A stretch of DNA of 29,734 nucleotides from a virus: the IMG/VR virus record IMGVR_UViG_3300031857_000980, positions 1-29,734 of that record. One strand, 5' to 3'. This document shows, in pieces, positions 1 through 18,100 of the stretch. Every line of letters starts with the position of its first letter. Within the stretch, counting starts at the first letter, position 1. The notes below the pieces were generated by a model, which worked only from the letters and a program-made list of their open reading frames with translations, was not told where the DNA came from and did not search any database. A program made the position numbers and the translations under genes.

Positions 1-548
1 CTTGTACCGCTGCTACCGGTGCTACCACCACTTCCGCTAGATCCACTTGTACCAGATGAACCACTTGAAGCAGACGATCCGCTACTACCACTTGAAGCAG
101 ATGATCCACTTGTACCGCTGCTACCGGTGCTACCACCACTTCCGCTAGATCCACTTGTACCAGATGAACCACTTGAAGCAGACGATCCGCTACTACCACT
201 TGAAGCAGATGATCCACTTGTACCACTACTACCGGTGCTACCACCACTTCCGCTAGATCCACTTGTACCAGATGAACCACTTGTACCACTACTACCGGTA
301 CTACCACCACTTCCACTGCTTCCACTTGATCCACTTGTACCGGACGATCCACTACTACCGCTTGTGCCACTACTTCCGCTTGATCCGCTTGTACCACTAC
401 TACCTGTACTACCACTTTCACCACTGGTACCAGAGCTACCACTGCTACCGACGGTACCACTACTTCCACTACTACCGTCTATACCAGATGTACCGGAGAT
501 ACCGCTTGTGCCACTACTTCCATTTATACCTGATGTGCCGGATGTACC
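1..548 (-). repeat. Collagen-like block at the left edge with 108-bp tandem repeat
   Basis: Gly-x-y block of the left-edge fibre gene, open at the window edge. A 108-bp unit marked by CTACCGGTGC at 13, 121 and 229 is tandemly repeated (36 residues per unit); the first two copies are nearly identical and the third diverges from about 275 on. Confidence 0.9.
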
Positions 549-722
549 GCTATAACTGAGAGCATAACTAGCGGTTAGGGCGGTATGGGCATAACTGGCT
601 GTTATGGCGTAACTACCCGTACCGTATATCAACTGTTTATTTTCGATATATAGGCTACCAGAAAGGTATACCGAACCCGTAATTACGGATGAACCTGAAA
701 TGACTGGGGTATAAATAATCAT
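1..722 (-). CDS. Collagen-like tail fibre protein (3' end outside window)
   Basis: 240 codons are visible and the frame is open to the left edge. The ATG at 722-720 is the first start after an in-frame TAG at 728-726. The N-terminus reads MIIYTPVISGSSVITGSVYL, close in pattern to the starts at 25529 and 15116 (M-x-I-x-x-P then G-S-L beta strands). Residues about 28-58 contain SYAITASYA and ALTASYALSYSG motifs nearly identical to those before the second collagen block of the 9573-15116 gene (SLYFEQ versus SLYIEN; TALTASYALSYSGTSG in both). From residue 59 on it is a Gly-Ser-Ser/Gly-Thr-Ser block running off the window. It is separated from the chaperone-like gene by 247 bases containing the conserved ACTATTTATAAT box, so it may have its own promoter. 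Confidence 0.85.
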   Translation of the reverse strand, partial: MIIYTPVISGSSVITGSVYLSGSLYIENKQLIYGTGSYAITASYAHTALTASYALSYSGTSGTSGINGSSGTSGISGTSGIDGSSGSSGTVGSSGSSGTSGESGSTGSSGTSGSSGSSGTSGSSGSSGTSGSSGSSGSGGSTGSSGTSGSSGTSGSSGSGGSTGSSGTSGSSASSGSSGSSASSGSSGTSGSSGSGGSTGSSGTSGSSASSGSSGSSASSGSSGTSGSSGSGGSTGSSGT

Positions 723-969: not shown

Positions 970-1536
970 TTAGCTGGATCTATAAGTAGGAACCGGAGGA
1001 AAAGGCGGTAAATTTATATTTACCAAAGTTGGTATTGAAGGCCATATAATTGTAGTAGGATCAGATGTATTTGGCAAATCTCTTAATTGTTGTCTAAATG
1101 TAGCAAATTCTGATTTTGCTTGAGTTGAAAATGGTACATCTGATAGTTGTGTAAAATCTGTTAAAGATAGATATCTATCTCTAATCATTCTTATTTGACT
1201 TCTTAAAACCTCAACTCTTTCAGATAATTCTTGAGCCGTCAAAGTTTTTATAGTATATGTAACATTACACGTTTTACTTGTTGCATCCAAAGAATTATTT
1301 GGAATCAAACTTTGACTTATATTATAATCTGGTTTTGTATCAAAATTTGCTTTCCAAAAACCTAAATTGGAATTACCTTGCCAGGTTAGATCGGATAATA
1401 ATTCAGGTGAACTTTCTTCCAAAACATTAAATCCACTAGTGGGGCCAAAGTTATCAGGCAATTGCATTGGTCCTTGAATTATAAAATAATTTTGATTGTC
1501 AATCTTGTTAACTAAAAAATATTGATTTGTACTCAT
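970..1536 (-). CDS. Phage tail assembly chaperone-like protein
   Basis: A 188-residue protein. The N-terminal part (FIIQGPMQLPDNF near 18-30) resembles the small beta domain that often precedes this family's helical part. Residues about 101-126 are a charged helix (ELSERVEVLRSQIRMIRD), followed by the signature RDRYLSLTDFTQLSDVP (119-135), FRQQLRDLP (147-155) and WPSIP (165-169). This order, RD..L..TD..QL.D.P then FR..LRD.P then WP..P, is typical of the phage tail assembly chaperone family Phage_tail_APC (PF16778, from memory). Family members lie beside tail-fibre genes and are thought to help fibre or tail assembly. The start is three bases after the stop of the lectin-like gene (TAATTTATG), pointing to translational coupling. 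The proline-rich end PPFPPVPTY is unremarkable. The assignment is by motif reading and not by a profile search. Confidence 0.78.
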   Translation of the reverse strand: MSTNQYFLVNKIDNQNYFIIQGPMQLPDNFGPTSGFNVLEESSPELLSDLTWQGNSNLGFWKANFDTKPDYNISQSLIPNNSLDATSKTCNVTYTIKTLTAQELSERVEVLRSQIRMIRDRYLSLTDFTQLSDVPFSTQAKSEFATFRQQLRDLPNTSDPTTIIWPSIPTLVNINLPPFPPVPTYRSS

Positions 1537-1539
1537 AAA

Positions 1540-2313
1540 TTAAACGCTTATACCATATCTGTATTTGATTTGATCTTTTATTGCCAAAGCTGCTGTAGTA
1601 GATAAATATGTATCACTATAAATAGCATCTCCATAATAACTTCTAGGCATATAGTTATCAACACCTTGTTGACCATATCTACCCAAAGCTATTTTTCCAG
1701 CGGTATTCATTGCTAATCCTCCTATAGCTGTATTACTATAAGAATTACCAGCACTATCAAATAAATAAAAATAACCAGCGTTAGTGGAAAAACTATTTCC
1801 TACAACGGCTATATATCTTCTGCCTGATACTGGAGCCGTTCCTAGGGTTGCTATATTAGACGCTCCATTTCTTAAAAACTGCCATGGTTGTGAAGCAGAA
1901 AAACTATACTGACCAATCCACCAATCATGCGTACTATTAGCATACGCGCCGGCGATAATATCAGCGCCGTATGTTAAATTGGAGGCTACGTATTCCCAAC
2001 CTACTATAAAAGTAAAGTTATCTGATGTACCAATATTCAAGTAAATTGTTTTACCTTGGCCAGGTGTAGGATTATAACCTGTAGTATTATTTAAATAAAC
2101 CATTCCACCGCATTTCCACGGATAATACTCAGATGATAATTGATAAGCTGTACCAACAATACCATTGCCTGAAACATCTAGAAAATCTCCAGCTGATTTT
2201 TGTGGATTATAACTTCTACCTTGACTTAGATTATATCTATAAACAGATGCACCGGCGGATGGATTATATGGAAAAGCACTTCCGTTAATATTTTGGTTAA
2301 GTGATATACTCAT
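1540..2313 (-). CDS. LamG/concanavalin-A-like lectin-fold protein, probable fibre tip or accessory adhesin
   Basis: A 257-residue protein with the look of a concanavalin-A-like jelly roll of the LamG type: alternating aromatic/hydrophobic strands (TFIVGWEYVA near 101-110, RYIAVVGNSF near 166-175, YFYLFDSAGN 181-190), then GKIALGRYG (207-214), YYGDAIYSDTYLS (226-238) and a final helix AALAIKDQIKYRYG. The end matches the common LamG pattern in which a 'G-x-I-A-I-Y' strand is followed by 'LS' and a short helix. No signal peptide or membrane segment is seen. It starts three bases after the fibre stop codon (TAATCTATG) and ends three bases before the next gene, so the three are very likely one transcript. 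A carbohydrate-binding role at the fibre end is inferred from fold and position; the ligand is unknown. Confidence 0.75.
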   Translation of the reverse strand: MSISLNQNINGSAFPYNPSAGASVYRYNLSQGRSYNPQKSAGDFLDVSGNGIVGTAYQLSSEYYPWKCGGMVYLNNTTGYNPTPGQGKTIYLNIGTSDNFTFIVGWEYVASNLTYGADIIAGAYANSTHDWWIGQYSFSASQPWQFLRNGASNIATLGTAPVSGRRYIAVVGNSFSTNAGYFYLFDSAGNSYSNTAIGGLAMNTAGKIALGRYGQQGVDNYMPRSYYGDAIYSDTYLSTTAALAIKDQIKYRYGISV

Positions 2314-2316
2314 AGA

Positions 2317-5300
2317 TTATAAGTTAGTACTTACTAGAGCTTGTGATACAACGGTTCCAATCCAGACTGGTGTACCTGCTCCTCCTTGATAACTAGTTAA
2401 CATAAATACATCTGCATAACCATTTGTACCAGTTAATGTAGGAGCTACACCATTTGCCCATATTACGTTGGTAAATGTAATAGAAGCTGAACCAGCATAT
2501 TTTACAACCAACATAATTGTATTTACAGATGGATTGTTATCTCTGTTGGTATAACTGATTGTGGTAATGGTTGCACCACTTGCCATAGAAACAACATATA
2601 CAGCCGCAGTATCCAAATTGAGTGTTAATGTTTGGCCAGTACCACTAACACTTACTGTTGTGCTATTTTGTACAAATTTACTTGTAGTTCTAATTGAACC
2701 ATTTACATCTAATGTATAACTCGCTGCTTGTCCATTATTTATAGACATTCTTTTGTTTGTACCATCAAACCAAGCAATTACACTATTCTTACCATTACCA
2801 ACATTGAAATTTCTAAATTGTGTATTTCCATTATTATATCCAGCATAGTTAATCCACATATCTGCAATGCCATTAGTAAAATATGCAGAATTTAAAGTAT
2901 TATTTTCAGTTGGAGATACATAAATATAATCATTAAATATTGTTAGATTATTTATTGCAGTTCTAAATGTACCATTTACGTCCAATTTAGAACCAGGACT
3001 GGTCGTACCAATACCTACACTACCTCCGTTTAATATTGTCATTAAAGTGGAGGTATCACCACCATTAATAAAATTAAGCGCAGTTGTGCCTGTATAAATG
3101 TAACTATACGCACCACCAGAACCAGCAAAAAACTTTTGGCCACCTATAGAATGATAAACATTTGCTGCAAAGTTGGTGGTTCCATTTATATCTAATTTAG
3201 CAATCGGAGCTGTAGATCCAATACCTACGTTGCCTGATGCATCAATAATTGCAGTTTGAGTGGTTCCTCTGTAAAATGCTATTTTACCAGCGGACCAAGT
3301 ATTTACTTCCATTTGACCAGAAGAAACACTCATACCTCCTATAGCACCACCACTACCATCTTCATAAACTCTTAATTTTACATTGGCTCCTGCACTATTA
3401 CTAAATGTACCTCCCAAACTTAATGTTTCTGTAGCAGAAGTTTGTGTGCTTGTTAAATTGCCTAGTTGAAGTCTTGATGACGGTCTACTTGTACCTATAC
3501 CTATACTACTACCACTAACCACCAAAGCATTGCTACCATATTTACCAGCAACAACTCTATTGTTGCTAAATACTTCCAATAATGGCAAACCAGATACATC
3601 GTTTACACTAAATAAACTACCACTTAGTTGATCTGTTACTTCAAATAGTGTGCCGTTACCACCATCTACTCTAAATACACTCAAATTGCTACCACTAGCA
3701 TAAGCATTTAATTTACTTAATACTTGACTTGTACCTATACCTACGTTACCTGTAGAACCAGAAACAACCAAGTCATTTCTATTGACATTGCTATCAATGT
3801 TTATTTTTACACCTACGACTGCTGAGTTACTTCCAAATACAGCGTAACTAGAATTGGTACCACTTGCTACAGATGTTCCGAATTGTCCATATGTTGTACC
3901 ATATACAGCACCTACTACGTGTAACTTTTGAACAGGACTACTTGTTCCTATACCCAAATTACCATTACTATTAATAATTGCGTAATTACTACTACCGCCT
4001 CTGTTTCTGAAATAATGGGTGGTATTATCATAATAATTTGCTGGATCAGAATTATTTCCCAAATATATTCCTGGATTTCCAGCTGGTTCATATAATCTAT
4101 TATAATTTCCAGAATATAATGCAACAAGTACACCACCGCTAGCTATTCCGCCATTTACATCTAATCTATAAGCAGGACTAGTTGTGCCTATACCTACACT
4201 ACCTGCGGTGTTCAATACGTGGTAAGTAGTACCTCCAGCACCCAAAAGTAAATTACCATTATCAGTTCTTATAGTCGAATTGCCGGCTCCACCGTCAGTG
4301 GATCTATTGGATGAATTTGTAAACAATACTATACCATTGGCATCTCCATTTCTACGTAATACTATTGCTGAGTAAGCACTTGTTCCTGTGCTTGCATTTC
4401 TAACAAAAGCCACATGACCGGCATCTGTACTGTCATAAACATCCAATCGTCCAACCGCTGCACTAGTTCCAATACCAACGAATCCATCATTGGCTTGAAT
4501 ACGCATTCTTTCACTTGTTCCATTAGCGTAAAATCTTAAATGAGCACCTGTTGTACCTGGACTATTATAATTAATGTACATACCATCTTGAATGGTAGAT
4601 GACATGTTTCTTATAACTCTTATATTAGCATATATATCATTTGCATTACTACTTTCATTTAGTACCGCAACTGTTCCAAATCTTAATACAGTTCCTGTTG
4701 CAAAATTTACATCTCCGCCTGCAACGTCTAATTTATAAGCAGGAGCAGCAGATCCTATACCTACGTTGCCAGTACTCGTTATACGTAGTTTTTCAGTTGG
4801 TAATGTATTTGTAGCATTTGTAGCAAATATTAAAGATTGAGCATTATCTCCAGCTGCTGCAGCATCGATTCTTGATCCAATATAAGCATAAGCATTGGCA
4901 TTTGAAGTGGTATTTGTAAATGCTAATGCTGTACCTGTATTAAAAACATCGGATCCTACATTACTACGTATTCTACCGGCTATATTAACTATAGAAACTG
5001 ATCCACTACCCACCAATTCAAATTTATAAGCAGGACTTGTTGTACCTATACCTACATTTCCGTTACCTGTGACAGTTAATCTTGCGGTTGAATTTGTTCT
5101 GAGTATTAAGGATCTTACTCCGCTATCATGACCAAAATAGCTAGCGGTATCATCCATTGTAAACGTAGTTGTATATCCAGATGTAGATGTTCCACTAAAT
5201 ACATAATTTGAAGCGGCATTTGTTCTAACCTCAAGTTTACCACCAGGAGTTGTTGTACCTATACCAATATTACCATTTGAATCTATAAGTACTTTTGTAT

Positions 5301-8300
5301 TGTTTCCACTATTCCATGTGCCTATATTAGCATATGTATTTCCTTTAATTCTGAATTCGACACCTTCTATTATATCTAACCATGGACTACCACTACCAAC
5401 GGATAATGCTAAACCATTATTAGCACCACCACCACCGTTTCTAATTCTAATAGCACTGTCATTTGCAGTATTTACATCTAATTTATAAGCAGGACTACTT
5501 GTACCTATACCCAAATTACCACTACTATTAAGTCGCATCTTTTCAGTTGTTTCTGTATAAAATGCGTGATTTGCCGTAGTACCACCGGAATTTCCCGCAT
5601 GATATTCAATACCGCCAGCATTATTCAAACCAAATCCATAAGTTTCACTATTTGTTGTATTTCTATATAAATAAAATTTCAATGATGTGTTTCCACCAAC
5701 TGCATTTCTAAAGGTATTATCCATTTGTATTGCAGTTGGTGTAGCAGTAGCACCAGATGAACCACCTACTTGCAATAAAGATGCAGGACTTGTTGTACCT
5801 ATACCAACATTGCCAGTTGATGGACCAACAAATAATCTTCCATTGTTAATGTTTAATGATCCATTTGCGGTGCCACCATCATCAATTCTTATGTAACCAA
5901 CACCACTATCCATATAAGATGCAAAAAATCCAGTACCGTCAGAATCATTAATTATTACATCTCCACCACCAGATAAAGTTATATTTGAATTTACTTGTAA
6001 AGTACTTGAAAAATATCCAGTTCCATTCACATCTAATTTATAAGCAGGACTTACTGTACCTATACCCACACTGCCGTTGCTTAACATTACAAAACTGTTA
6101 CCAAAATTAGATTTGTAACTTAATATTGCTAAATTATTTCCTGTTCCTGTAGCGTCCGCATCTACCCAATCCCAACCATCAGCATATGCATCATTGTATG
6201 CGCTACTATACATACTTTCCACATATAATTTAGGCCAGTAGCCTGGACTTACTAATACAATACAAACTTTAGGCGTACCTGAAGAATCCCAGTCTTCAGC
6301 CGATAACTTAACCGTTGGAGCATAACTACCTGCCGAACTAATTGTTGGGTTATAAAAAGTACTCAAATAATAATGCCAACAAATCATCAAACTAGTAGTT
6401 TCTACACTACCATATCTAAATCCCTTTATATTAATCGTGAAATCTGCTGCTCCAGACGCAAAAGGAATTTTTGTTCTTATCTTTATGAAGTTTGGAGTGA
6501 CTTGACTATTAATATCTAAACCAATTAGTGTAAGTTTACTTCCATCACCAAAACTAGCTTCTCCATCAACCGCTAATTTTATTGAAGGACTACTTGTACC
6601 TATACCAACATTACCACCGCTAGTTATACGCATGTATTCTGTCGAAGCGGTCTGACTGGTTGTTTTATACCATACATGATTACCTCCTGTATAATAACCA
6701 GTTATATCATCATGTATTCCAAAACCACTGATCCAACTAGAACCATCATCATATAAAGTAATTTTATTTGGACCTCTATTTGTAGTATTAGAATAATCGT
6801 TATTAAATATCAAACGACTAAATGATGTGTAGTTAACTGCTGCGGCACCACCTTGAGTTCCTTGAATATATTGATTACCATTGTATATATGAAATTTTTG
6901 TGCTGGACTTGTTGTGCCTATACCGACATTACCACCAGCTTCAATGCGTAATTTTTCTGTTTGTGTACCATTGCCAGTATAAAATCTTACGCCACCATTT
7001 ACTATAGATTCAATCAAAGCATAATTGGTTGTTTCTGAACCCATTATCAATGCGGCTGCACCACCAAATTTTTGTAGTGATAATGTATTACCAGATGCGT
7101 TGTAAATTACAACTTGTCCATTTGTTAAGGTAGTTGTACCTATACCAACATTACCACCGGATGTAACATACATCAAAGTATTACCATTTGATTTAACTTC
7201 AAGTGGTGCAAATCCTGATAGAGATTGAACAATCAAACCACCACCATTTAAGAACTCGGTACCCCTGGTGAGTAGACCTGAATCATCTGATATTAATATA
7301 GATCCATTAGCAACACTTGGTCTTATGTTACCCGTGTCTGCGTCATAAGAAGCTAATACTATACCGCCGCTATTTGTAGCGATAGCTGCATCTCCAAAAA
7401 CTATTAGTTTTCTCGATGCAGATGTTGTACCTATACCCAAATTACCAGTTGAAGTTAATCTTGCTCTCTCTGTACCAGAAACATAAAACATGGTATAACT
7501 ACCATTTATTAATATTGGTTCGTAGTTAGCGTTAACTCTATCATATACTTGGAATATACCCTGACTACCATCCCAACCAATTTCTACACCACCGGTTGTA
7601 CCTGAATTATTGTTTGACCAACCACTAACTGAAAGACCACCACCAGCAACATCTAATCTAGCCGTAGGAGTTGTTGTGCCTATACCAACAAGACCATTTC
7701 TAATAGCCAATCGTGTAGCTACTGCGCGAGCATCATCCGCTACATCTATACCGAAGGTCGTCGCAGTATAACCATTACCAACTTCAGTCCATAGTCTGGC
7801 TTTATAATAGCTGGTATTTCCATTGTACCAAGAAATAGCTTGTCTACCAGTAGCTTGAGCATTATCTTCATACAAATAAATTGCATCTCTTGTAGTTGTA
7901 TCTGCTACAGTTGTTTGTATTTGTAAAGCATTACTTGTTCCATTATTTAAGAAAGTTTGTCCAGAAACTTGTAATTTATAAACAGGATTACTTGTGCCTA
8001 TACCAACGTTACCATTAGCATCGATACGCATTCTTTCAGTATTATTAGTATACAATATAAAAGCACCATTATCCGTATTATTCAAGTATACATTCGTTGA
8101 ATACTTTTGAATATAAAACGGATTATTACTATTTCTAAGTGCTATCAACGAATCAGTAGCACCATATAATTCTAATAATCCTCTGTTTGAAGTTGAATAT
8201 GTAAATGTTGATGTGCCTATACCTACATTGCCGTAGAAAACAGCAGCCGTAGATGATCCTGTTATGTGTAACTTAGCCACAGGATTTGTTGTGCCTATAC

Positions 8301-9540
8301 CTATATTGCCATCTGTAGCAACATACAATGCTTGTGTAGCATTTCTTACACCCAATGAAAGAGCTGTTGCTCCTGTTGTAAAATACCACAACCTAATATT
8401 ACCCAGTTCGGTACCACCAGTCGCACCTTGTGAAAATCTAATACCAGTATAATTTCCATCACTAATACCCCCATCTGTATTAAAATTAACTTGATAAGCA
8501 GAGGCTTGAGTTGGTCTTGAAATTGTTAATTGATGTGAAGGACTATTTGTACCCAAACCAAGATTGCCATTATTTAATATAGTCAACGCAGGTGTACTAT
8601 TAATTTTATCATAAGAGGATACTCTTAACAAAGCATGATATCCATTTACACTTTCCCATCCACCTGCTACATCAAATAAAGATGCTGTAACTTGATTTCT
8701 GTTAGCCGTTGCTGGATAACCGGTTATACCACCAACTGGCCCAGGACCACTGAAATTTTCATTGCCTACTACAAAGTAATTTGCATCAGGAGCACTACCA
8801 TACATTTGTGTACCAACTTGTAATTTAGCTGTAGGACTAGTTGTGCCTATACCAACATTGCCACCTGCTGTAATACGCATTTTTTCTGTACCATTTGTAT
8901 AAAATAAATAAGCGTGTGCTCCAGCTGTAGAAAAAATTGTACCATTTGAATCTGCACCAATACTGAATCCAACATCTGTAGCTAAATCTCTTGTAAACGT
9001 AGCAAGCGTAGCTGCTGTGTTAAATACATGTAATGGTGTACTTGGACTTGTCGTACCTATACCAATATTACCATTAGGATCTACAGCTATTCTATAAGCA
9101 CCACCAGTATTATCAAATAAACCAAATCCAGATCCTACACCATATCCAGTTGTACCAGCAATAAATCTCCAATCACGATCACCAAGAATCCATAAATTTC
9201 CACCACTTCCAGGTGTACCAACAGTAGCATCTCCAAGTACTTGTAACTTTGTACCCGGATTACTTGTGCCTATACCAACCAACCCAGCAGCAGTCACACG
9301 CATTTTTTCACTAGCGTTAGTTTCTAAAACCAATGGTTGATTATCGTTGGTACCAAGCAATGCCGTTGTGCCAAAACTGTTACCTCCTTGTACAAACAAA
9401 TTGGAACCAGCAAAACTTCCGCTGAAACTGCCAGTTATACCCTTTGCTCTAATGTTATCACTAAATCTAACTAAACTGCTACTAATCGTGATTTGAGCAC
9501 TGCTTGTTATAAAGCTATTTTTGATCTGGATTTTAGCCAT
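2317..9540 (-). CDS. Tail fibre protein (2407 aa) built of about 25 NVGIGT modules
   Basis: Long beta-structured fibre or shaft protein. The N-terminus (MAKIQIKNSFITSSAQITISSS, then ITGSFSGSFAG) differs from the other fibre genes. From about residue 87 to 2190 it repeats modules of roughly 50-100 residues, most ending EKMRI-x-x-x-GNVGIGTTSPxYKLDVNG; about 25 were counted by eye. A globular insertion sits near residues 1002-1156. Another module (near 3571-3720) is shared with the giant fibre gene. The last 112 residues form a Gly/Thr-rich beta domain with WANGVAPTLTGTNG and GGAGTPVWIG, a tail type seen at the ends of phage fibre proteins; there is no S74 domain. It ends in TAA three bases before the LamG-like gene, which suggests a shared message and coupled translation. 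No collagen-like block is present, unlike the two genes upstream. Confidence 0.92.
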   Translation of the reverse strand: MAKIQIKNSFITSSAQITISSSLVRFSDNIRAKGITGSFSGSFAGSNLFVQGGNSFGTTALLGTNDNQPLVLETNASEKMRVTAAGLVGIGTSNPGTKLQVLGDATVGTPGSGGNLWILGDRDWRFIAGTTGYGVGSGFGLFDNTGGAYRIAVDPNGNIGIGTTSPSTPLHVFNTAATLATFTRDLATDVGFSIGADSNGTIFSTAGAHAYLFYTNGTEKMRITAGGNVGIGTTSPTAKLQVGTQMYGSAPDANYFVVGNENFSGPGPVGGITGYPATANRNQVTASLFDVAGGWESVNGYHALLRVSSYDKINSTPALTILNNGNLGLGTNSPSHQLTISRPTQASAYQVNFNTDGGISDGNYTGIRFSQGATGGTELGNIRLWYFTTGATALSLGVRNATQALYVATDGNIGIGTTNPVAKLHITGSSTAAVFYGNVGIGTSTFTYSTSNRGLLELYGATDSLIALRNSNNPFYIQKYSTNVYLNNTDNGAFILYTNNTERMRIDANGNVGIGTSNPVYKLQVSGQTFLNNGTSNALQIQTTVADTTTRDAIYLYEDNAQATGRQAISWYNGNTSYYKARLWTEVGNGYTATTFGIDVADDARAVATRLAIRNGLVGIGTTTPTARLDVAGGGLSVSGWSNNNSGTTGGVEIGWDGSQGIFQVYDRVNANYEPILINGSYTMFYVSGTERARLTSTGNLGIGTTSASRKLIVFGDAAIATNSGGIVLASYDADTGNIRPSVANGSILISDDSGLLTRGTEFLNGGGLIVQSLSGFAPLEVKSNGNTLMYVTSGGNVGIGTTTLTNGQVVIYNASGNTLSLQKFGGAAALIMGSETTNYALIESIVNGGVRFYTGNGTQTEKLRIEAGGNVGIGTTSPAQKFHIYNGNQYIQGTQGGAAAVNYTSFSRLIFNNDYSNTTNRGPNKITLYDDGSSWISGFGIHDDITGYYTGGNHVWYKTTSQTASTEYMRITSGGNVGIGTSSPSIKLAVDGEASFGDGSKLTLIGLDINSQVTPNFIKIRTKIPFASGAADFTINIKGFRYGSVETTSLMICWHYYLSTFYNPTISSAGSYAPTVKLSAEDWDSSGTPKVCIVLVSPGYWPKLYVESMYSSAYNDAYADGWDWVDADATGTGNNLAILSYKSNFGNSFVMLSNGSVGIGTVSPAYKLDVNGTGYFSSTLQVNSNITLSGGGDVIINDSDGTGFFASYMDSGVGYIRIDDGGTANGSLNINNGRLFVGPSTGNVGIGTTSPASLLQVGGSSGATATPTAIQMDNTFRNAVGGNTSLKFYLYRNTTNSETYGFGLNNAGGIEYHAGNSGGTTANHAFYTETTEKMRLNSSGNLGIGTSSPAYKLDVNTANDSAIRIRNGGGGANNGLALSVGSGSPWLDIIEGVEFRIKGNTYANIGTWNSGNNTKVLIDSNGNIGIGTTTPGGKLEVRTNAASNYVFSGTSTSGYTTTFTMDDTASYFGHDSGVRSLILRTNSTARLTVTGNGNVGIGTTSPAYKFELVGSGSVSIVNIAGRIRSNVGSDVFNTGTALAFTNTTSNANAYAYIGSRIDAAAAGDNAQSLIFATNATNTLPTEKLRITSTGNVGIGSAAPAYKLDVAGGDVNFATGTVLRFGTVAVLNESSNANDIYANIRVIRNMSSTIQDGMYINYNSPGTTGAHLRFYANGTSERMRIQANDGFVGIGTSAAVGRLDVYDSTDAGHVAFVRNASTGTSAYSAIVLRRNGDANGIVLFTNSSNRSTDGGAGNSTIRTDNGNLLLGAGGTTYHVLNTAGSVGIGTTSPAYRLDVNGGIASGGVLVALYSGNYNRLYEPAGNPGIYLGNNSDPANYYDNTTHYFRNRGGSSNYAIINSNGNLGIGTSSPVQKLHVVGAVYGTTYGQFGTSVASGTNSSYAVFGSNSAVVGVKINIDSNVNRNDLVVSGSTGNVGIGTSQVLSKLNAYASGSNLSVFRVDGGNGTLFEVTDQLSGSLFSVNDVSGLPLLEVFSNNRVVAGKYGSNALVVSGSSIGIGTSRPSSRLQLGNLTSTQTSATETLSLGGTFSNSAGANVKLRVYEDGSGGAIGGMSVSSGQMEVNTWSAGKIAFYRGTTQTAIIDASGNVGIGSTAPIAKLDINGTTNFAANVYHSIGGQKFFAGSGGAYSYIYTGTTALNFINGGDTSTLMTILNGGSVGIGTTSPGSKLDVNGTFRTAINNLTIFNDYIYVSPTENNTLNSAYFTNGIADMWINYAGYNNGNTQFRNFNVGNGKNSVIAWFDGTNKRMSINNGQAASYTLDVNGSIRTTSKFVQNSTTVSVSGTGQTLTLNLDTAAVYVVSMASGATITTISYTNRDNNPSVNTIMLVVKYAGSASITFTNVIWANGVAPTLTGTNGYADVFMLTSYQGGAGTPVWIGTVVSQALVSTNL
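2970..9285 (-). repeat. NVGIGT module array (about 25 modules) of the 2407-residue fibre
   Basis: About 25 copies of [NS]-[VIL]-G-I-G-[TS]-x-x-P-x-x-K-L-x-V-x-G spaced 50-150 residues apart. The short strand motif is strongly kept while the segments between differ, as expected if modules were gained by recombination at the conserved motif. Confidence 0.9.
6075..6535 (-). other. Globular module inserted in the NVGIGT array (2407-residue fibre)
   Basis: Near residues 1002-1156, between two NVGIGT strands. It contains NFIKIRTKIPFASGAADF, INIKGFRYGS and KVCIVLVSPGYWPKLYVES, and is richer in Trp, Tyr and Cys than the surrounding rod. It is a recognisable relative of the module at 28650-29120; function unknown, surface-exposed binding is a guess. 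Confidence 0.75.
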
Positions 9541-9541
9541 A

Positions 9542-9565
9542 TTATATTAATTTATTCTAATATAA
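9542..9565 (-). repeat. 8-bp inverted repeat before the 2407-residue fibre gene
   Basis: Coding strand TTATATTA, 8-base loop, TAATATAA, ending one base before the ATG. The stem is all A-T and therefore weak, but it sits where the third of three start-adjacent hairpins would be expected. Confidence 0.4.
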
Positions 9566-9570
9566 ATATG
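9559..9570 (-). promoter_or_regulatory. Variant CATATTTATATT box before the 2407-residue fibre gene
   Basis: Coding-strand TATTTATA core, 30 bases upstream of the ATG, immediately after the TAG stop of the upstream gene. The core is the same octamer as in the other boxes; the flanks differ. Confidence 0.4.
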
Positions 9571-9572
9571 AC

Positions 9573-12500
9573 CTACATCTTACGTATCATCGCTTTTATT
9601 GTATAACTCTCACCACTACCACTTTCCAATGCTTGAGCTATAACTTTACCAAACAAGTCCTTTTTGAAGATATTACCACGCTTTACACCCTTACCATGAC
9701 CTTTTTTATTGCTGGTAACGATATAATCACCAACATCTACTTTACCAGTAACCAAGATAGGTTCAGCACCTAATATAAGTGGTTCATCTTTACCATTCTT
9801 TACCACACCCATAACCAATTCATCTTCTTCTACTTTACTTGGTACACATTTATCGACTTCCCAACTTACTATAGTACCTGTTTGATATTCACCTAATCCA
9901 ACTGTTCTTAATCCAGTTTCAAACAAACCACCGATGGTTGATTGTGCTGCAAATATATCACTAAATCTGTTGCTTGGATTTCCAAGTGGGAATTTATTAT
10001 CTCCTACAGGAGCAATACTACCACTTACTTGTAGTTTATAAGCGGGTGTTGTACTACCAATACCGACGTTACCGTCACTGGTAATACGCATTTTTTCCGT
10101 CATACTGACACCTGTGTAAGTACGGAAAACTAAATGATATCCAGAAACACCGGCGATTTCACAATCACCATTATTCCAAGTTATATAATTACCTTGTGGT
10201 AAGTATATATTTCCAACAACAGAGAATTTTTGTACAGGACTTGTAGTGCCAATACCAACGTTACCATTCTTGTCCAACATCATTCTTTCAATGCCATTTG
10301 TAGAAAATGACATATAACCATCATATGCACCACCACCTCTATAATAATTTATACCTGAATTTAATGTGGTACTATAAAATAAACCTTGAACAAATGTCTT
10401 TGTATTAATTGTACTAGACCCAGAATTATAAGTTCTTAACTTAAAGTTTCCTTCAGTTGCATTAGTTAAATCAAATATAAAATTACCAGCACTCTTATAA
10501 GCAGTTAATGTTGCGGTTGGAACACTTGTACCAATACCAAGATTACCATTTGTATCAACTCTAACTACTTCACTACCTTGTATTTGAAAATATAAATAAG
10601 AACCACCTAAACCGAGTGGTTGATATGATGATGCAAATGTATTATCTACACCTTGAATCGTTGCACCTGTATTATCAATATTAAATCTAACACCTTTGGT
10701 TGCTGCATTTACACCAAATGCATATGCACTATTTGAACTACTTACATGAAGTCTTGCAGCAGGTACACTGGTACCAATACCAACGTTACCCGATGAATTT
10801 ATTACAAATTGATTTGTAAATGAACTATAAGCATTATTTGTTTGTAATATACGAAATGTACCGCCTTCTACATCAATCCAACGATTTGTAGTTCCACTTT
10901 GATCGCTTTCTCTGAATATTATTCCTGGCTGACTTGATTCTACTATAATTTTATTACTTGAACTAATAGTATTGTTAAAGAAAGAAATACCTTCTACATG
11001 TAATTTAGCAGTTGGACTGCTTGTACCAATACCAAGATTACCATTTGTATCTAATGTCATTCTGGTACTTCCATTGGTTTCAAATGCAAGTGCTGACGCA
11101 TCATTTGTACCCAATGTAGCGGTTGTACCAAAACTATTGCCACCTTGTTTAAAATATGAAGATAATTGTGGTATAGATCCACTAAAACTACCAGTAAAAT
11201 TTGTAGCCCATACATTGCCAACTACTCTCAACTTAGCATTTGGACTGGTCGATCCGATACCAACGTTACCTGTAGAATCGATTCTGAATTTTTCCGAACT
11301 ATAAATGTTAAATGTAATTGGTGCGCCATCTTCTGTTTGGGTTGTAAATCCACCTGTACCACGATATAGTATTAAACCTAAACCATTTTGACCAGAATTT
11401 CTTATTAATCGTAAGCCGTATGTAGTATATACAGTATCAGAAACTAAATTAATATACGATGGTCCGTCACTAGGTCTTTGATATCCTATAATTAATGATG
11501 AATCTTGTGGACTAACGCTTCTAATATAAACGGTTTCTATAAACTTTGCTGTACCTTCTACTTCTAATCGACTGACAGGAGTTGCTGTACCTATACCAAC
11601 CGATCCCCCAGCTGTTATTCTAACCTTTTCACTATTATTTACTGATAGTCCAATTGGATAATTATTGACCGTACCAAAGTAAGCGACATTGTTAAATGGA
11701 TTTATTTGTATTACAGTTGTACCATCACTTATAGCAAATTTAGTGGTTGGATTTGTGGTACCAATACCAACATTACCATTGACATCAATACGCATTCTTT
11801 CTTGGTTACGTAAAAAAGGACCAGAACCTACATTGAATGCCATATAATCATTACCATAAATTGCGGTGGTAATGCTATGTTTCATTATTCCACCATTAGC
11901 AAAACCAAGACCCACAACATTAGTACCAGCTCCACCAGAATTATTATCAATATATAAAGGATAAGCCGTACTACCTATACTTCCACTAACCACATGTAAT
12001 CTAGCCAATGGACTAGTAGTACCAATACCAATATTGTTGTTTAATTCGAATATAGGTGTAGTTGTATTACCAATCGTAGTTGAACCAGTAAATTTAACGA
12101 TTGTATTTGTCGTGCCACTAACCGAAACACTACTACCACTTGTACCACTAGATCCACTTGAAGCACTACTACCGCTTGTACCAGACGATCCACTTGAAGC
12201 ACTACTTCCGCTTGTACCACTAGATCCACTTGAAGCACTACTACCGCTTGTACCAGACGATCCACTTGAAGCACTACTACCGCTTGTACCACTAGATCCA
12301 CTTGAAGCACTACTACCGCTTGTACCAGACGATCCACTTGAAGCACTACTACCGCTTGTACCAGACGATCCACTTGAAGCACTACTACCGCTTGTACCAG
12401 ACGATCCACTTGAAGCACTACTACCGCTTGTACCAGACGATCCGCTTGAAGCACTACTTCCGCTTGTACCACTAGATCCACTTGAAGCACTACTACCGCT

Positions 12501-15116
12501 TGTACCAGACGATCCACTTGAAGCACTACTACCGCTTGTACCAGACGATCCACTTGAAGCACTAGATCCGCTTGTGCCGCTACTACCACTAGTTCCACTA
12601 CTACCACTAGTTCCACTACTTCCACTTGAAGCGCTAGATCCACTTGTGCCACTGCTACCGGCACTACCACCACTTCCACTTATTCCACTAGTACCACTAC
12701 TACCGGATGAACCGCTTGTACCAGAGCTACCAGATGAACCACTTGAAGCACTACTTCCACTGGTGCCGCTTGTGCCACTACTTCCAGATGTACCTGTCGA
12801 ACCACTACTGCCACTTGTTCCACTGCTACCGGTACTACCGCTAGATCCACTGGTACCACTACTTCCATTAATACCACTTGATCCAGCTGTACCTGATGTA
12901 CCACTATAACTCAATGCATAACTTGCAGTTAAAGCGGTCAATGCATAACTTGCTGTATTTGGATTTTGGCCAATGGGTACAACTACAACATTATTTGAAT
13001 TAAATCTTAATTGTGCTTGATTGTTTACAACATCGACTGTAAGAGGATATTGTTCAAAATAAAGACTACTGGTACTTAGATAGATATCTCTCCATTTTAG
13101 TGAAGGAGTACCTAGACTATAAAAGTTATTTTGGAAAGGTACTAGATTTTGTTTGACCCCAGCCAAATAACTAGCTGTAATAGCTCTACTGCTGGTTATT
13201 GGATAACTACTACCTGTAAATATACTGGTACCGCCATTTAAAGCATATATAGCCCAACTGGCTGTAATTGGATAACTACTACCTGTGATAAGATTTGCAC
13301 CACTACCGGAAATTATTCTTAATCCGCTACGAGCGGCTATAGCATAACCACTTTCATTTATAGGAAACGTTAAAGTAGCGGTATTATTGTTATTTAATAC
13401 GATATCTTGGGGTACTATTTGATTATAGTTTATATCGTATGCTTGTATCAATACTGGTCGAGTACCCAAATTATGATTGAATGTCCACGTACTACTACTT
13501 GTAAAAGTACCTACTACACTATTTGCCGGAGTACTACTGCCACTAACAACATTTATAGCCCAACTGGCTGTAATTGGATATAAACTACCTGTGTAAATAT
13601 TTGCTCCACCACCACCACTACCAGAAAATATTCTTAAACCACTACGTGTAGCAATTACAAAACCACTTTCAAGCGATGGAAAGCTGAGTGTGGCTGTATT
13701 GATATTATTTAGATAAACATTTGATGGTATGATTTGATTGTAGAAATAATCAAATGCTTGTATTACTACCAAACGAGAATTTAAACCGTGATTAAAAGTC
13801 CAAGTACTACTGCTTATAAACGTAGCAGTAACACTATTACCAACTGGAACATAACTCGCAGTAAGAGCATTTATAGCCCAGCTACTTGTTATAGGATATG
13901 TACTGCCAGTTAAAACTGTGCTACCACCATTTAAAGCATTTACCGCCCAACTACTTGTTATGTAATATGTTCCTTTAGCTAAACTACCACTAAAACTACC
14001 TGTAAAACTATTAGCATTTACACGATTTGTTACAATCAAACTACCAGTAATTTGGGTATTACTATTTATTTTTACAACCGAACCATTGTCTGTAATATTA
14101 CTATCACCAATTTGATTTCCATCAGTTGCTTTAGGAATATAATTGGTAGTAAGATTACCATTGTTATTTGGACCAAGTATAAATTTATTTTGACTATTGG
14201 TTGCGGTACTACCACTAACAAAGAAATAATTTCCTTGACTATCCCATAACATGCTACTCATGGCATTACTACCACTATCATGCATTTCCAAACCAGCAAA
14301 TCTCTTATATGGACTTAAAGCGTTTAATGTGATGATATTATCACCAATTATAACGTGGCTACTAGTAATAATTACATAACTAGCACTAAAAATAGTTGCG
14401 GTACCAGCTACATTTAAATTACCATCTATAAAAAGTGTACTTCCACTAAATCTTAAATCACTTTGTACAGTAGCACTATTACCATATCCATTATATGTAA
14501 TCACACCCTGCGGAGTAGATCCAGTTAACGCTAATAATCCACTACTACCGCTTGATCCAGCACTACCACTAGTACCACTAGTACCAGATGATCCACCAGT
14601 TCCACTACTTCCACTTGTACCACTTGATCCGGATGTACCACTACTACCACTACTACCGCTACTACCCGATGTACCACTTGATCCAGCACTTCCACTTGTA
14701 CCACTTGATCCACTACTACCGCTAGTACCACTACTTCCACTTGATCCGGATGTACCACTTGATCCAGCACTACCACTTGTACCGCTTGATCCAGCACTAC
14801 CACTTATACCGCTTGATCCAGCACTACCGCTAGTACCACTACTTCCACTTGTACCACTACTTCCACTACTTCCACTTGTACCACTTGATCCAGCACTACC
14901 ACTTGTACCACTACTTCCACTTGATCCTGACGTACCACTACTACCGGCTGTACCACTTGTGCCGCTTGATCCGTTTGCTCCGCCAATAGCTTTGTGAACT
15001 TGACCAGTTGTATTGTCGATTGATAAGAAAAAACCAGTTGGATTAGTGGTTAGGTTCGTAATGAATATAGAACCTGTTATACCTGGCGTTAAAATTTGCG
15101 GCGAATCAATTTTCAT
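9573..15116 (-). CDS. Tail fibre protein (1847 aa) with two collagen-like blocks, twin HNLG domains and a non-S74 C-terminal domain
   Basis: Fibre protein whose start MKIDSPQILTPGITGS parallels those at 25529 and 722. Residues 46-192 are 49 unbroken Gly-x-y triplets. A region of TASYA/TSSWA beta motifs follows (about 195-740), holding two homologous copies of a domain with TWTFNHxL, IQAxDxxxNQIxP and ESGxxIAxRSGLRI near residues 426-498 and 534-602. Residues about 739-996 are a second collagen-like block, then nine NVGIGT modules. The last 118 residues lack SDxRxK; instead they contain VSWEVDKCVP, TGKVDVGDYIVTS and FGKVIAQALESG, and are rich in Lys and Glu, unlike the Ser/Thr/Asn-rich rod. 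Such V-x-GDYI-V-T-S tails occur at the ends of other fibre proteins and may be an alternative chaperone or tip; that is inference. It ends in TAG, 32 bases before the next gene. Confidence 0.92.
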   Translation of the reverse strand: MKIDSPQILTPGITGSIFITNLTTNPTGFFLSIDNTTGQVHKAIGGANGSSGTSGTAGSSGTSGSSGSSGTSGSAGSSGTSGSSGSSGTSGSSGTSGSAGSSGISGSAGSSGTSGSAGSSGTSGSSGSSGTSGSSGSSGTSGSAGSSGTSGSSGSSGSSGTSGSSGTSGSSGTGGSSGTSGTSGSAGSSGSSGLLALTGSTPQGVITYNGYGNSATVQSDLRFSGSTLFIDGNLNVAGTATIFSASYVIITSSHVIIGDNIITLNALSPYKRFAGLEMHDSGSNAMSSMLWDSQGNYFFVSGSTATNSQNKFILGPNNNGNLTTNYIPKATDGNQIGDSNITDNGSVVKINSNTQITGSLIVTNRVNANSFTGSFSGSLAKGTYYITSSWAVNALNGGSTVLTGSTYPITSSWAINALTASYVPVGNSVTATFISSSTWTFNHGLNSRLVVIQAFDYFYNQIIPSNVYLNNINTATLSFPSLESGFVIATRSGLRIFSGSGGGGANIYTGSLYPITASWAINVVSGSSTPANSVVGTFTSSSTWTFNHNLGTRPVLIQAYDINYNQIVPQDIVLNNNNTATLTFPINESGYAIAARSGLRIISGSGANLITGSSYPITASWAIYALNGGTSIFTGSSYPITSSRAITASYLAGVKQNLVPFQNNFYSLGTPSLKWRDIYLSTSSLYFEQYPLTVDVVNNQAQLRFNSNNVVVVPIGQNPNTASYALTALTASYALSYSGTSGTAGSSGINGSSGTSGSSGSTGSSGTSGSSGSTGTSGSSGTSGTSGSSASSGSSGSSGTSGSSGSSGTSGISGSGGSAGSSGTSGSSASSGSSGTSGSSGTSGSSGTSGSSASSGSSGTSGSSASSGSSGTSGSSASSGSSGTSGSSASSGSSGTSGSSASSGSSGTSGSSASSGSSGTSGSSASSGSSGTSGSSASSGSSGTSGSSASSGSSGTSGSSASSGSSGTSGSSASSGSSGTSGSSASSGSSGTSGSSVSVSGTTNTIVKFTGSTTIGNTTTPIFELNNNIGIGTTSPLARLHVVSGSIGSTAYPLYIDNNSGGAGTNVVGLGFANGGIMKHSITTAIYGNDYMAFNVGSGPFLRNQERMRIDVNGNVGIGTTNPTTKFAISDGTTVIQINPFNNVAYFGTVNNYPIGLSVNNSEKVRITAGGSVGIGTATPVSRLEVEGTAKFIETVYIRSVSPQDSSLIIGYQRPSDGPSYINLVSDTVYTTYGLRLIRNSGQNGLGLILYRGTGGFTTQTEDGAPITFNIYSSEKFRIDSTGNVGIGSTSPNAKLRVVGNVWATNFTGSFSGSIPQLSSYFKQGGNSFGTTATLGTNDASALAFETNGSTRMTLDTNGNLGIGTSSPTAKLHVEGISFFNNTISSSNKIIVESSQPGIIFRESDQSGTTNRWIDVEGGTFRILQTNNAYSSFTNQFVINSSGNVGIGTSVPAARLHVSSSNSAYAFGVNAATKGVRFNIDNTGATIQGVDNTFASSYQPLGLGGSYLYFQIQGSEVVRVDTNGNLGIGTSVPTATLTAYKSAGNFIFDLTNATEGNFKLRTYNSGSSTINTKTFVQGLFYSTTLNSGINYYRGGGAYDGYMSFSTNGIERMMLDKNGNVGIGTTSPVQKFSVVGNIYLPQGNYITWNNGDCEIAGVSGYHLVFRTYTGVSMTEKMRITSDGNVGIGSTTPAYKLQVSGSIAPVGDNKFPLGNPSNRFSDIFAAQSTIGGLFETGLRTVGLGEYQTGTIVSWEVDKCVPSKVEEDELVMGVVKNGKDEPLILGAEPILVTGKVDVGDYIVTSNKKGHGKGVKRGNIFKKDLFGKVIAQALESGSGESYTIKAMIRKM
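9576..9929 (-). other. Charged C-terminal domain replacing S74 in the 1847-residue fibre
   Basis: Residues 1730-1847. It contains YQTGTIVSWEVDKCVPS, PILVTGKVDVGDYIVTS, GHGKGVKRG and FGKVIAQALESGSGESY. The Lys/Glu-rich composition contrasts with the rod. The V-x-G-x-V-x-x-G-D-Y-I pattern recalls beta-rich tails seen after other fibre rods, some with self-cleaving chaperone roles; no cleavage site can be named here. Confidence 0.6.
10020..12060 (-). repeat. NVGIGT module array (9 modules) of the 1847-residue fibre
   Basis: Nine copies by eye, from NIGIGTTSPLARLHVVSG to NVGIGSTTPAYKLQVSG. The segment between includes a QGGNSFGTTATLGTND module that is also present near the start of the 2407-residue fibre. 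Confidence 0.9.
12129..12902 (-). repeat. Second collagen-like block of the 1847-residue fibre (86 triplets)
   Basis: 258 residues in Gly-x-y phase, no proline. It is flanked upstream by TALTASYALSYS and downstream by SVSVSGTTNTIVKFT, nearly the same downstream flank as in the giant fibre (SVAVSGTTNTIVKFT). Confidence 0.93.
12157..12562 (-). repeat. 36-bp tandem repeat, 12 copies, encoding SSASSGSSGTSG
   Basis: The marker CTTGAAGCAC (plus strand) occurs 12 times from 12157 to 12553 at exactly 36-bp spacing. Each unit codes for GSS ASS GSS GTS, so every fourth triplet has Ala in place of Gly. Copies differ at only a few silent positions (ACCAGACGAT versus ACCACTAGAT). Confidence 0.95.
13310..13515 (-). 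other. HNLG-type beta domain, copy 2 (1847-residue fibre)
   Basis: Near residues 534-602: STWTFNHNLGTRPVLIQAYD, NYNQIVP, NTATLTFP, ESGYAIAARSGLRI. It is homologous to copy 1, and the two are separated by a short TGSxYPITASWAI linker. Confidence 0.8.
13622..13840 (-). other. HNLG-type beta domain, copy 1 (1847-residue fibre)
   Basis: Near residues 426-498: STWTFNHGLNSR, VVIQAFDYFYNQIIP, NTATLSFP, ESGFVIATRSGLRI. It is a small beta domain frequent in phage tail proteins and duplicated here at 13310-13515. Confidence 0.8.
14541..14981 (-). repeat. First collagen-like block of the 1847-residue fibre (49 triplets)
   Basis: Residues 46-192 read as unbroken Gly-x-y triplets, mainly GSS, GTS and GSA, with one GTG, one GIS and one GAN. 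No proline and no Gly replacement is present. Confidence 0.93.
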
Positions 15117-15155: not shown

Positions 15156-18100
15156 TTATTTATTTACTTTTGACTTTAAATCATCAATTTCTATTTGTTG
15201 TTGTTTGACTATAGCACTCAATTCTTGTACTGCTTTAATCAAAGGTACCATCAAATTACCTGGGGTAGCTTCCAATTTATTAGGATTAGACTCATATACC
15301 AGATTCAAATATGTAGCATTTTCAGTTTCTTGTAGCTCTTTTAGTTCTTGAGCTATAAAACCAATTTGTGTTGCATCATCTTTTTTGCTACCGTCTCTGT
15401 TGCCATTAGGATACCACTCACGTTTATCCCACTTAAATGTCACAGGACGTAGTTTTTCAACAAATGATAAGCCTACTTGTACGTTATTTATATCAGTTTT
15501 ATCTCTAAAGTCTGATAGAGCGGTTATGGTGGTTACTTGACAACGTAGTGTAGCTACGGACGAATTACCCAGTGTTATTTCATTTGTAGCTGTAGCAGAT
15601 GAAGCGGCTGCTAAATAACCTATTATAGTTAGATTTGTACCAGTTGTTACAGCTGTACCCGCACCATATCCAACTGCGGTATTATTTGTACCACTTGTAG
15701 TACCTACCAATGCTCTAGCACCTACAGCAACATTAAATACGCCTGTATTATTAGCATATAATGCTCTGTAACCTATCGCAACACTTCCACTTGGTACTGC
15801 CGTAAATGGAAATGCTAATGGACCTTGTAAAGTATCAGTTCCTACCGCTACGTTTCTGTTGCCATGTAAGACGTAAATCATCGATGCGTGTCCTACAGCA
15901 GTATTATCTATCGCGCTTACTGTACCTCTCAATACACCATATCCGAAAGCAGAATTGTTGTTTCCGGTCGTATTTAAAGATAGAGCGTTAACACCTATTC
16001 CAAGGTTATTATTACCCGTGGTATTACTACCCAAAGAATTTCTGCCAAGAGCAACGTTTCCTTGACCAATTGTGTTGGTTTGTAAAGCATAAGTTCCGAA
16101 TGCAGTGTTCCAAATACCCGTTGTATTGCTTGACATTGCTTTATAACCAAATGCGCTATTATCTCTACCGGTAGTGTTTGTACTTAAAGCGTTGTAACCA
16201 AATGCACTATTAGTAACACCAACAGTATTAACTGCCAAAGCTCTGTAACCAAACGCACTATTACCTTTACCAGTAGTATTGCTATTTAATGCCTGATAAC
16301 CTACAGCTACATTTGATAATGGTTTTGTGTTAGATACATTTTTATTACCTCTACCCACTGTAATTTTATCGATAATTACATTGTAGTTACTAAATGCTTC
16401 GATTACAGGCAAACCTGTAATATCATTTACACTAAACAAACTACCGCTTAGATTGTCTGTTACTTCAAATAGTGTACCATTACCACCATCAACTTTGAAT
16501 ACACTTAGATTGCTACCACTAGCATAACTATGTAGTTTACTAATAGGAGTTAGTGTACCTACACCTACGTTACCACTACTATTGACCCACATTCTCTTGT
16601 TACCTTGACCATCGGCAAGTATGATAGTACTGCTTAGTGAACTTGATAAACCCGTAACATTAGCGCCAACTATTGTGTTGTAATTACCTGTGGTAATTCC
16701 TCTGCCAGCAGCAAAACCTATTGCGGTATTTAAAGTTCCTGTGGTTACTTCGTATAATGCTTGAGCGCCAAACGCACTATTACTATTTGTGGTATTAAAA
16801 TATAGTGCTTGGTCTCCCATAGCTGTATTATTTGTACCAACTTCATTACTATATAATGAATATAAACCAAATCCATTGTTTCTACTACCAGATGTATTTG
16901 ATCTTAAAGCTAAACGTCCTACAGCAGCATTATAATTACCAGTTGTATTTAAACTTAAAGCGCCTTGACCAACACCTACATTACAAAGACCAATTGTATT
17001 ATTTTGTAAAGCGGTATCACCTATAGCTACATTTAAAGCTCCTGTTGTATTATTAAGTAATGCTTTATAACCAAAAGAGCTATTTGCATAACCAAATGTA
17101 TTTGTATATAAAGATAAATATCCAAAACTGCTATTTCTATATCCTGTTGTGTTACTTTGTAGAGAACTACGACCAACTGCTGTATTATAATTACCTGTAG
17201 TATTATAATACATAGCGTTATAACCAATTGCTACGTTAGCAATACCAATAGTGTTATATCTTAAAGCATAATTACCAAACGCACTATTATTATAACCAGA
17301 AGTATTGCTTCTCAAACTAAATCTTCCAAATGCACTATTAGCTCCACCAGTGGTGTTACTTTGTAATGTATATGCACCAAATGCACTATTGCAATTACCG
17401 GTGGTATTATTTGCCATTGCCGATCTACCAATTGATGTATTGTCTTGACCAGCTGTATTTGATAATAAACTGTTAACACCGATAGATACATTATTTACGC
17501 CGGTAGTATTATTTGCTAATGATTGATGACCAATTGCTACGTTATTTTGTCCACTAGTATTGGATCCCATAGCACTTGTACCTATTGATACGTTCTGAAT
17601 ACCCGTAGTATTTAGAATTAAAGAGTCTCTACCTATAGCAATATTATTATTACCACCCGTGTTTGCATTTAATGTATTAACACCAATTGCTACGTTATTT
17701 CCACCTGTTGTATTATTATACAAACTACCATAACCTACACCCGTATTATTAATACCAGTTGTATTTGTATATAGTGAAGCGTAACCAATAGCTGTATTAT
17801 TTACGCCCGTTGTATTGCTGAATAATGTATATGTACCAAATGAACTATTAGCAGTACCTATCGTATTATTTTGTGAAGAACCTCTACCAACAGCCGTATT
17901 TAATCCACCTGTAGTATTATTTAACAAAGCATTGACACCTACTCCAGTATTGCTGTTACCTATTGTATTCTTTTGTAATGCATTCAAACCAAATGCACTA
18001 TTATTAAGGCCGACAGTATTTAATAATAGTGTATAATTACCAAATGCACTATTTCCTGTTCCACTAATGTTTGCATTCAATGCTTTATAACCAAATGCAC

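Follow-up and report, generated by a model that had tools for sequence, protein, structure and literature searches.

The window, a 29,734-base linear virus record (IMGVR_UViG_3300031857_000980), begins inside a 108-bp tandem repeat, raising the question of what this array encodes and whether, as an initial annotation proposed, its copy number tunes the reach of a phage fibre. TRF places the array at 1-283, with a period of 108, 2.6 copies and 98% matches. Bases 1-108 are identical to 109-216, and the exact match between 1 and 109 spans 116 bp. The third copy is exact over 55 bp (13 = 121 = 229) and, within its opening 67 bases, differs from both earlier copies at 2 positions. The tandem repeat first described here is therefore real and exactly spaced, but it comprises 2.6 copies rather than three units because TRF closes the third copy at 283; base 1 is the contig end and lies inside the array, so that 2.6 counts visible copies only. 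The longest exact internal repeat in the tract at 9-548 is 108 bp, whereas its 60 nine-base units, shuffled 200 times, yielded a median of 22 and a maximum of 34. Exceeding that maximum, the repeat goes beyond what low-complexity code alone would yield.

The coding strand of the array, on which the initial annotation was silent, is the minus strand. It carries the 5' part of a collagen-like tail-fibre ORF at 3-722, with 240 codons visible, an ATG at 722 and no stop before the contig end. In the reading direction, a non-repeat N-terminal segment of 58 residues with TASYA motifs (549-722, minus strand) is followed by a Gly-X-X tract (9-548, minus strand) of 60 whole visible triplets, four of which are ASS instead of GXX. 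The array itself (1-283, minus strand), two identical copies and a partial third, forms the last part of the visible ORF, after the TASYA segment and the remaining Gly-X-X triplets. Its units are in frame and built on 9 bp, as first proposed, each whole unit comprising 12 triplets of which two are ASS. The ORF scores 74.6 bits against PF01391 (Pfam cut-off 27.2), and its top PHROG is phrog_5073, tail fiber protein (2.6e-23), a match driven largely by the tract. This assignment and a neighbouring chaperone gene (PF16778) support the proposed phage fibre gene, specifically as a tail-fibre gene. Relatives of the N-terminal segment, at 40-56% identity, stand ahead of Gly-X-X tracts in some of 21 loci.

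Copy-number change had been expected to leave the glycine register intact, which does not hold: each 108-bp unit has two Ala triplets in the Gly register, and ASS makes up 4 of 60 triplets in this tract and 14 of 86 and 5 of 86 in its sister tracts. Gly opens 56 of the 60 triplets of tract 9-548, a near but not strict periodicity. Besides Gly, the triplets hold mostly Ser and Thr, mainly as G-S-S and G-T-S. Proline is absent from all four Gly-X-X tracts of the window, and its fraction is 0.0023 over 298 tracts found in 105 of the 175 records searched (window included). The tract thus scores above the curated PF01391 cut-off, yet its Gly periodicity is not strict and its X and Y positions are not proline-rich.

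This composition bears on what the tract forms. It may be a flexible or otherwise folded Ser/Thr-Gly tether instead of a rigid collagen rod, in which case length would set tether slack and not rod reach. The lack of proline favours a tether, as does Ala in the Gly register at 23 of 232 triplets of three tracts, since classical triple helices tolerate Ala there poorly. Against this, the Pfam Collagen score lies far over its cut-off, although a match in glycine spacing and composition does not prove a fold. In addition, 37 distinct PDB sequences, largely collagens, match at E <=0.01 through glycine spacing. In relatives, moreover, glycine keeps its spacing almost strictly, as a packed axis would suggest. 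A tether is a serious alternative that falls somewhat short of even odds.

All 23 ASS triplets of the window fall in three tracts with long pure arrays (9-548, 12129-12902 and 24618-25391), and 22 of them share the codons GCTTCAAGT. ASS as a mark private to the window phage was considered and rejected: a pattern scan returned 78 stretches and 28 further tracts with at least three ASS, in a set biased by its own search pattern. The other tracts of the first set hold just 1 ASS in 49 tracts. One further locus, L130, has a tract of 341 triplets, of which 101 do not start with Gly; most of these are ATS or ASS, and they often lie two or four triplets apart.

Upstream of the array ORF in reading order lie a chaperone-like gene, a 257-aa protein, a 2407-aa fibre ORF and a pair of giant ORFs that hold the other three Gly-X-X tracts. 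The first encodes a 188-aa tail-fibre assembly chaperone-like protein (970-1536, minus strand; PF16778, 2.1e-13; phrog_4912 tail fiber assembly, 8e-17). The 257-aa protein (1540-2313, minus strand) has no match in Pfam or PHROGs; its predicted structure is of low confidence (mean pLDDT 55.3), and the matches listed for it are mostly to lectin-like folds, pentraxins and legume lectins among them, making it a possible lectin-like fibre tip. It is 74-92% identical across four relatives. The 2407-aa tail-fibre ORF (2317-9540, minus strand) matches phrog_18345 and phrog_9942, both tail fiber protein.

The second and third Gly-X-X tracts lie on the minus strand in ORF 9573-15116: one of 86 triplets, 14 of them ASS, at 12129-12902, which holds a 36-bp array, and one of 52 triplets at 14514-14981, free of ASS and of long exact repeats. 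The fourth, of 86 triplets with 5 ASS, lies at 24618-25391 (minus strand) in ORF 15156-25529 and holds 18- and 90-bp arrays. TRF confirms these previously noted arrays, the 36-bp one at 12124-12575 and the 18- and 90-bp ones at 24660-24995. The further statement that every repeat unit is a multiple of 9 applies to the Gly-X-X tracts but not to the whole window, which also contains 51-bp arrays between 18077 and 23583. These arrays of 17-residue units, in ORF 15156-25529, repeat an N-x-A-F-G-type sequence that we take to resemble YadA-head repeats. PF01391 and PF13884 (S74 chaperone) both occur in ORF 15156-25529, and S74 chaperone domains terminate this ORF and the one from 25582 onwards. A relative (L030) encodes a tail tube and baseplate hub, identifying the window phage as a tailed phage; it is probably T4-like.

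Two ideas about how the window tracts relate to one another were rejected. No two different tracts share an exact match of more than 23 bp, so that recent conversion between them is not supported, despite the codons common to 22 of the 23 ASS triplets. A rule placing the pure array near the C-terminal end is true of three of the four window tracts, with no such rule in relatives.

Searches of phage records, from which close records may have been withheld, found no near-identical relative of the window contig. The region 545-2313 had no DNA match in the 'phages' set, an exact-DNA scan with 24 bases of the 108-bp unit returned nothing, and a dedicated search with the N-terminal segment gave no match. 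The chaperone matches 14 records, every one below 60% identity and none covering 80%, and a genome-contig scan with it found no relative. For the flank of the 36-bp array, the nearest relative detected is L187, with 515 of 597 bases identical. Its orthologous tract consists of GIN-bearing units and shares DNA stretches of at most 14 bp with the window tract. Other units beside a flank of this similarity are as expected if arrays turn over.

Length change can be followed directly in related tracts. The initial annotation would have been contradicted by an absence of length polymorphism among relatives; such polymorphism is present in other IMG/VR phages, the window locus itself aside. A tract starting at residue 287 in seven contigs measures 147, 147, 159, 111, 99, 99 and 99 residues. 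Two changes separate this tract in L031 from that in L034: the neighbouring five triplets are duplicated (45 bp), and 9 bp are lost. The aligned part of the tract is free of substitutions, the 400 bp on either side are 100% identical, and 7,053 bp outside the tracts contain 7 substitutions and no gap. The difference has the form of a tandem duplication and a loss between in-register repeats. Internal exact repeats in this varying tract (112 and 135 bp) are comparable to the 108-116 bp found in three of the four window tracts. Separately, L031 carries a cassette of about 3.7 kb after the chaperone gene (7494-11191), with a sulfotransferase (PF13469) and two ORFs without a Pfam match; it is aligned through in L032 and L035 and skipped in L033, L034 and L106-L108.

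Length differences were scored from the spacing of unique 25-mers in 45 related pairs, after removal of 16 loci that were near-clones or duplicates. In this thinned set, 48 of 52 in-tract differences are multiples of 9, compared with 5 of 67 outside tracts, although the way tracts are defined already favours a 9-bp step to some extent, and the pairs share loci and are not independent. Unthinned counts are 74 of 78 and 8 of 112, respectively. The expectation that all length variants differ by multiples of 9 bp thus largely holds in related tracts, with four exceptions: three come from the pair L132/L176, and the fourth is a 641-bp interval covering more than one tract (L153/L165). Since 9 bp is the codon length of one triplet, such multiples are expected if frame and register are kept. 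They follow largely from the Gly-X-Y code and the need for register, and are therefore not evidence of tuning.

Of the 15 tract families, 10 vary in length and five kept one length. All six families with an internal exact repeat of at least 30 bp vary, versus four of nine without (hypergeometric about 0.04, by hand). The size of the longest internal exact repeat goes with the difference in length across 37 non-independent pairs (Spearman correlation 0.62; Mann-Whitney p 0.0003). This association is partly circular because duplication itself creates an exact repeat.

The pace of change can be read from tract pairs grouped by divergence. Length differs in 1 of 23 pairs with less than 0.2% divergence, in 1 of 4 between 0.2% and 2%, in 21 of 28 between 2% and 6%, and in none of the 4 beyond 6%. 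Equal length is thus seen in 36 of 59 pairs, including 22 of 23 in the lowest class and all four in the highest, with pairs sharing loci. Near-clone contigs of different samples have identical tracts (L031/L032; L106/L107/L108). Some tract families hold their length at 5-10% divergence. Against the general pattern, L115, L122, L160 and L168 (48 triplets each) and L163 (49) are near-constant in length at several per cent divergence. Fast length change was not seen: tracts keep their length among near-clones but frequently differ once divergence reaches a few per cent. Length change is thus an evolutionary process operating at about 0.1-5% divergence and not a switch within near-identical strains.

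The best explanation, to which we assign a probability of about 0.8, is that the 108-bp array arose by recent duplication within the Gly-X-X shaft of a tailed-phage tail-fibre protein, and that related shafts change by whole 9-bp triplets. The array, the ORF, its fibre neighbours and whole-triplet gains and losses in related tracts with near-unchanged flanks are all directly observed. Mechanistically, new copies could arise when internal exact repeats misalign during replication or recombine with one another, and indels that preserve frame and triplet register would survive. The product would be a rod or tether; as a collagen helix, each 108-bp unit would add about 10 nm (36 residues at 2.9 angstrom per residue, a value quoted in a passage of PMC3368898). 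The initial annotation was thus right in its observation and partly right in its interpretation.

The part of that interpretation that goes furthest is adaptive tuning, in which repeat number is selected for setting fibre reach and the purity of the array is maintained as a source of variants. Variation in two-thirds of tract families is consistent with tuning, and precedents described in passages of two reports are the tail-fibre duplications of phage EfV12-phi1 in coevolving replicates (PMC6365445) and the correlation of GXY repeat number with binding in the Legionella adhesin Lcl (PMC6460258). By analogy with these two systems, fibre length may matter to the phage. However, a neutral model predicts the same pattern, and the case draws on sequence and not on phenotype. 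The unchanged length of nearly all pairs below 0.2% divergence and of five whole families also weighs against tuning, which appears doubtful. A more elaborate version is more speculative again: the proline-free Ser/Thr-Gly shaft with amplified Ala-for-Gly units may be a length module of aquatic phage fibres that evolves fast and is private to its lineage. Arrays would then turn over completely, in both the type and the number of their units, beside flanking fibre that remains about 86% identical, and unit number would be selected for reach through the host surface layer.

Mis-joining or collapse of a short-read repeat could also produce an array at a contig end, and the relatives are all metagenome assemblies, in which repeats of at least 100 bp can be mis-assembled; the identical tracts of near-clone contigs from separate samples speak against this. 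The window contig does stop inside a 116-bp exact repeat, and the L187 contig likewise stops in its tract. Contig ends were considered as a sign of tract-driven assembly breaks and rejected: among 22 whole contigs, tracts make up 14.4% of the bases and reach 3 of the 44 ends, showing no enrichment. The third copy also departs from the first two, and the sister arrays sit well inside the contig, which makes an artefact improbable. Less probable still is a contingency locus with fast on/off or length-phase variation during infection: long pure repeats are the usual substrate of such loci, but the in-frame units preclude an on/off switch, and change within near-identical strains appears in just 1 of 23 pairs, though consensus assemblies could hide minor variants.

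The duplicated-shaft reading provides a comparative measure across uncultured phages, in which collagen-like shafts change in one-triplet steps, are stable within strains and vary between them. If length is selected, such steps would offer phages a simple route to adjust to host surface layers. The phenomenon itself is not new, and the window tract adds to already known length-variable collagen-like fibres. Triplet-step variation is known from E. coli prophage fibres, whose Col-domain lengths typically differ by multiples of three residues, as stated in part of PMC3368898. The EPclA and EPclB proteins covered there are likewise phage fibres with Gly-X-Y tracts of strain-dependent length. The window differs from them, as far as that portion of the source describes, in its proline-free tracts with Ala in the Gly register and in how its domains are ordered, with a TASYA segment, a lectin-like neighbour and S74 chaperones.

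Collagen-like repeats of variable copy number also occur in bacterial surface proteins, unlike the phage fibre of the window. In BclA-type filaments, copy number is polymorphic and linked to filament length. Lcl shares with the window this polymorphic copy number, according to the passages of PMC6460258 consulted. Among phages, EfV12-phi1 resembles the window in having in-frame tandem duplications of varying number in a tail-fibre gene; its units are 1.8 kb, laboratory-selected and not Gly-X-X, arising in 4 of 4 coevolving replicates and in none of the phage controls (part of PMC6365445). Pelagimyophages, which are aquatic and T4-like, carry triple collagen repeats in their structural operons and combine collagen repeats with lectin domains among host-recognition proteins, as described in sections of PMC7029224 that do not take up length variation; the window is similar in its collagen-like tracts and possible lectin-like neighbour.
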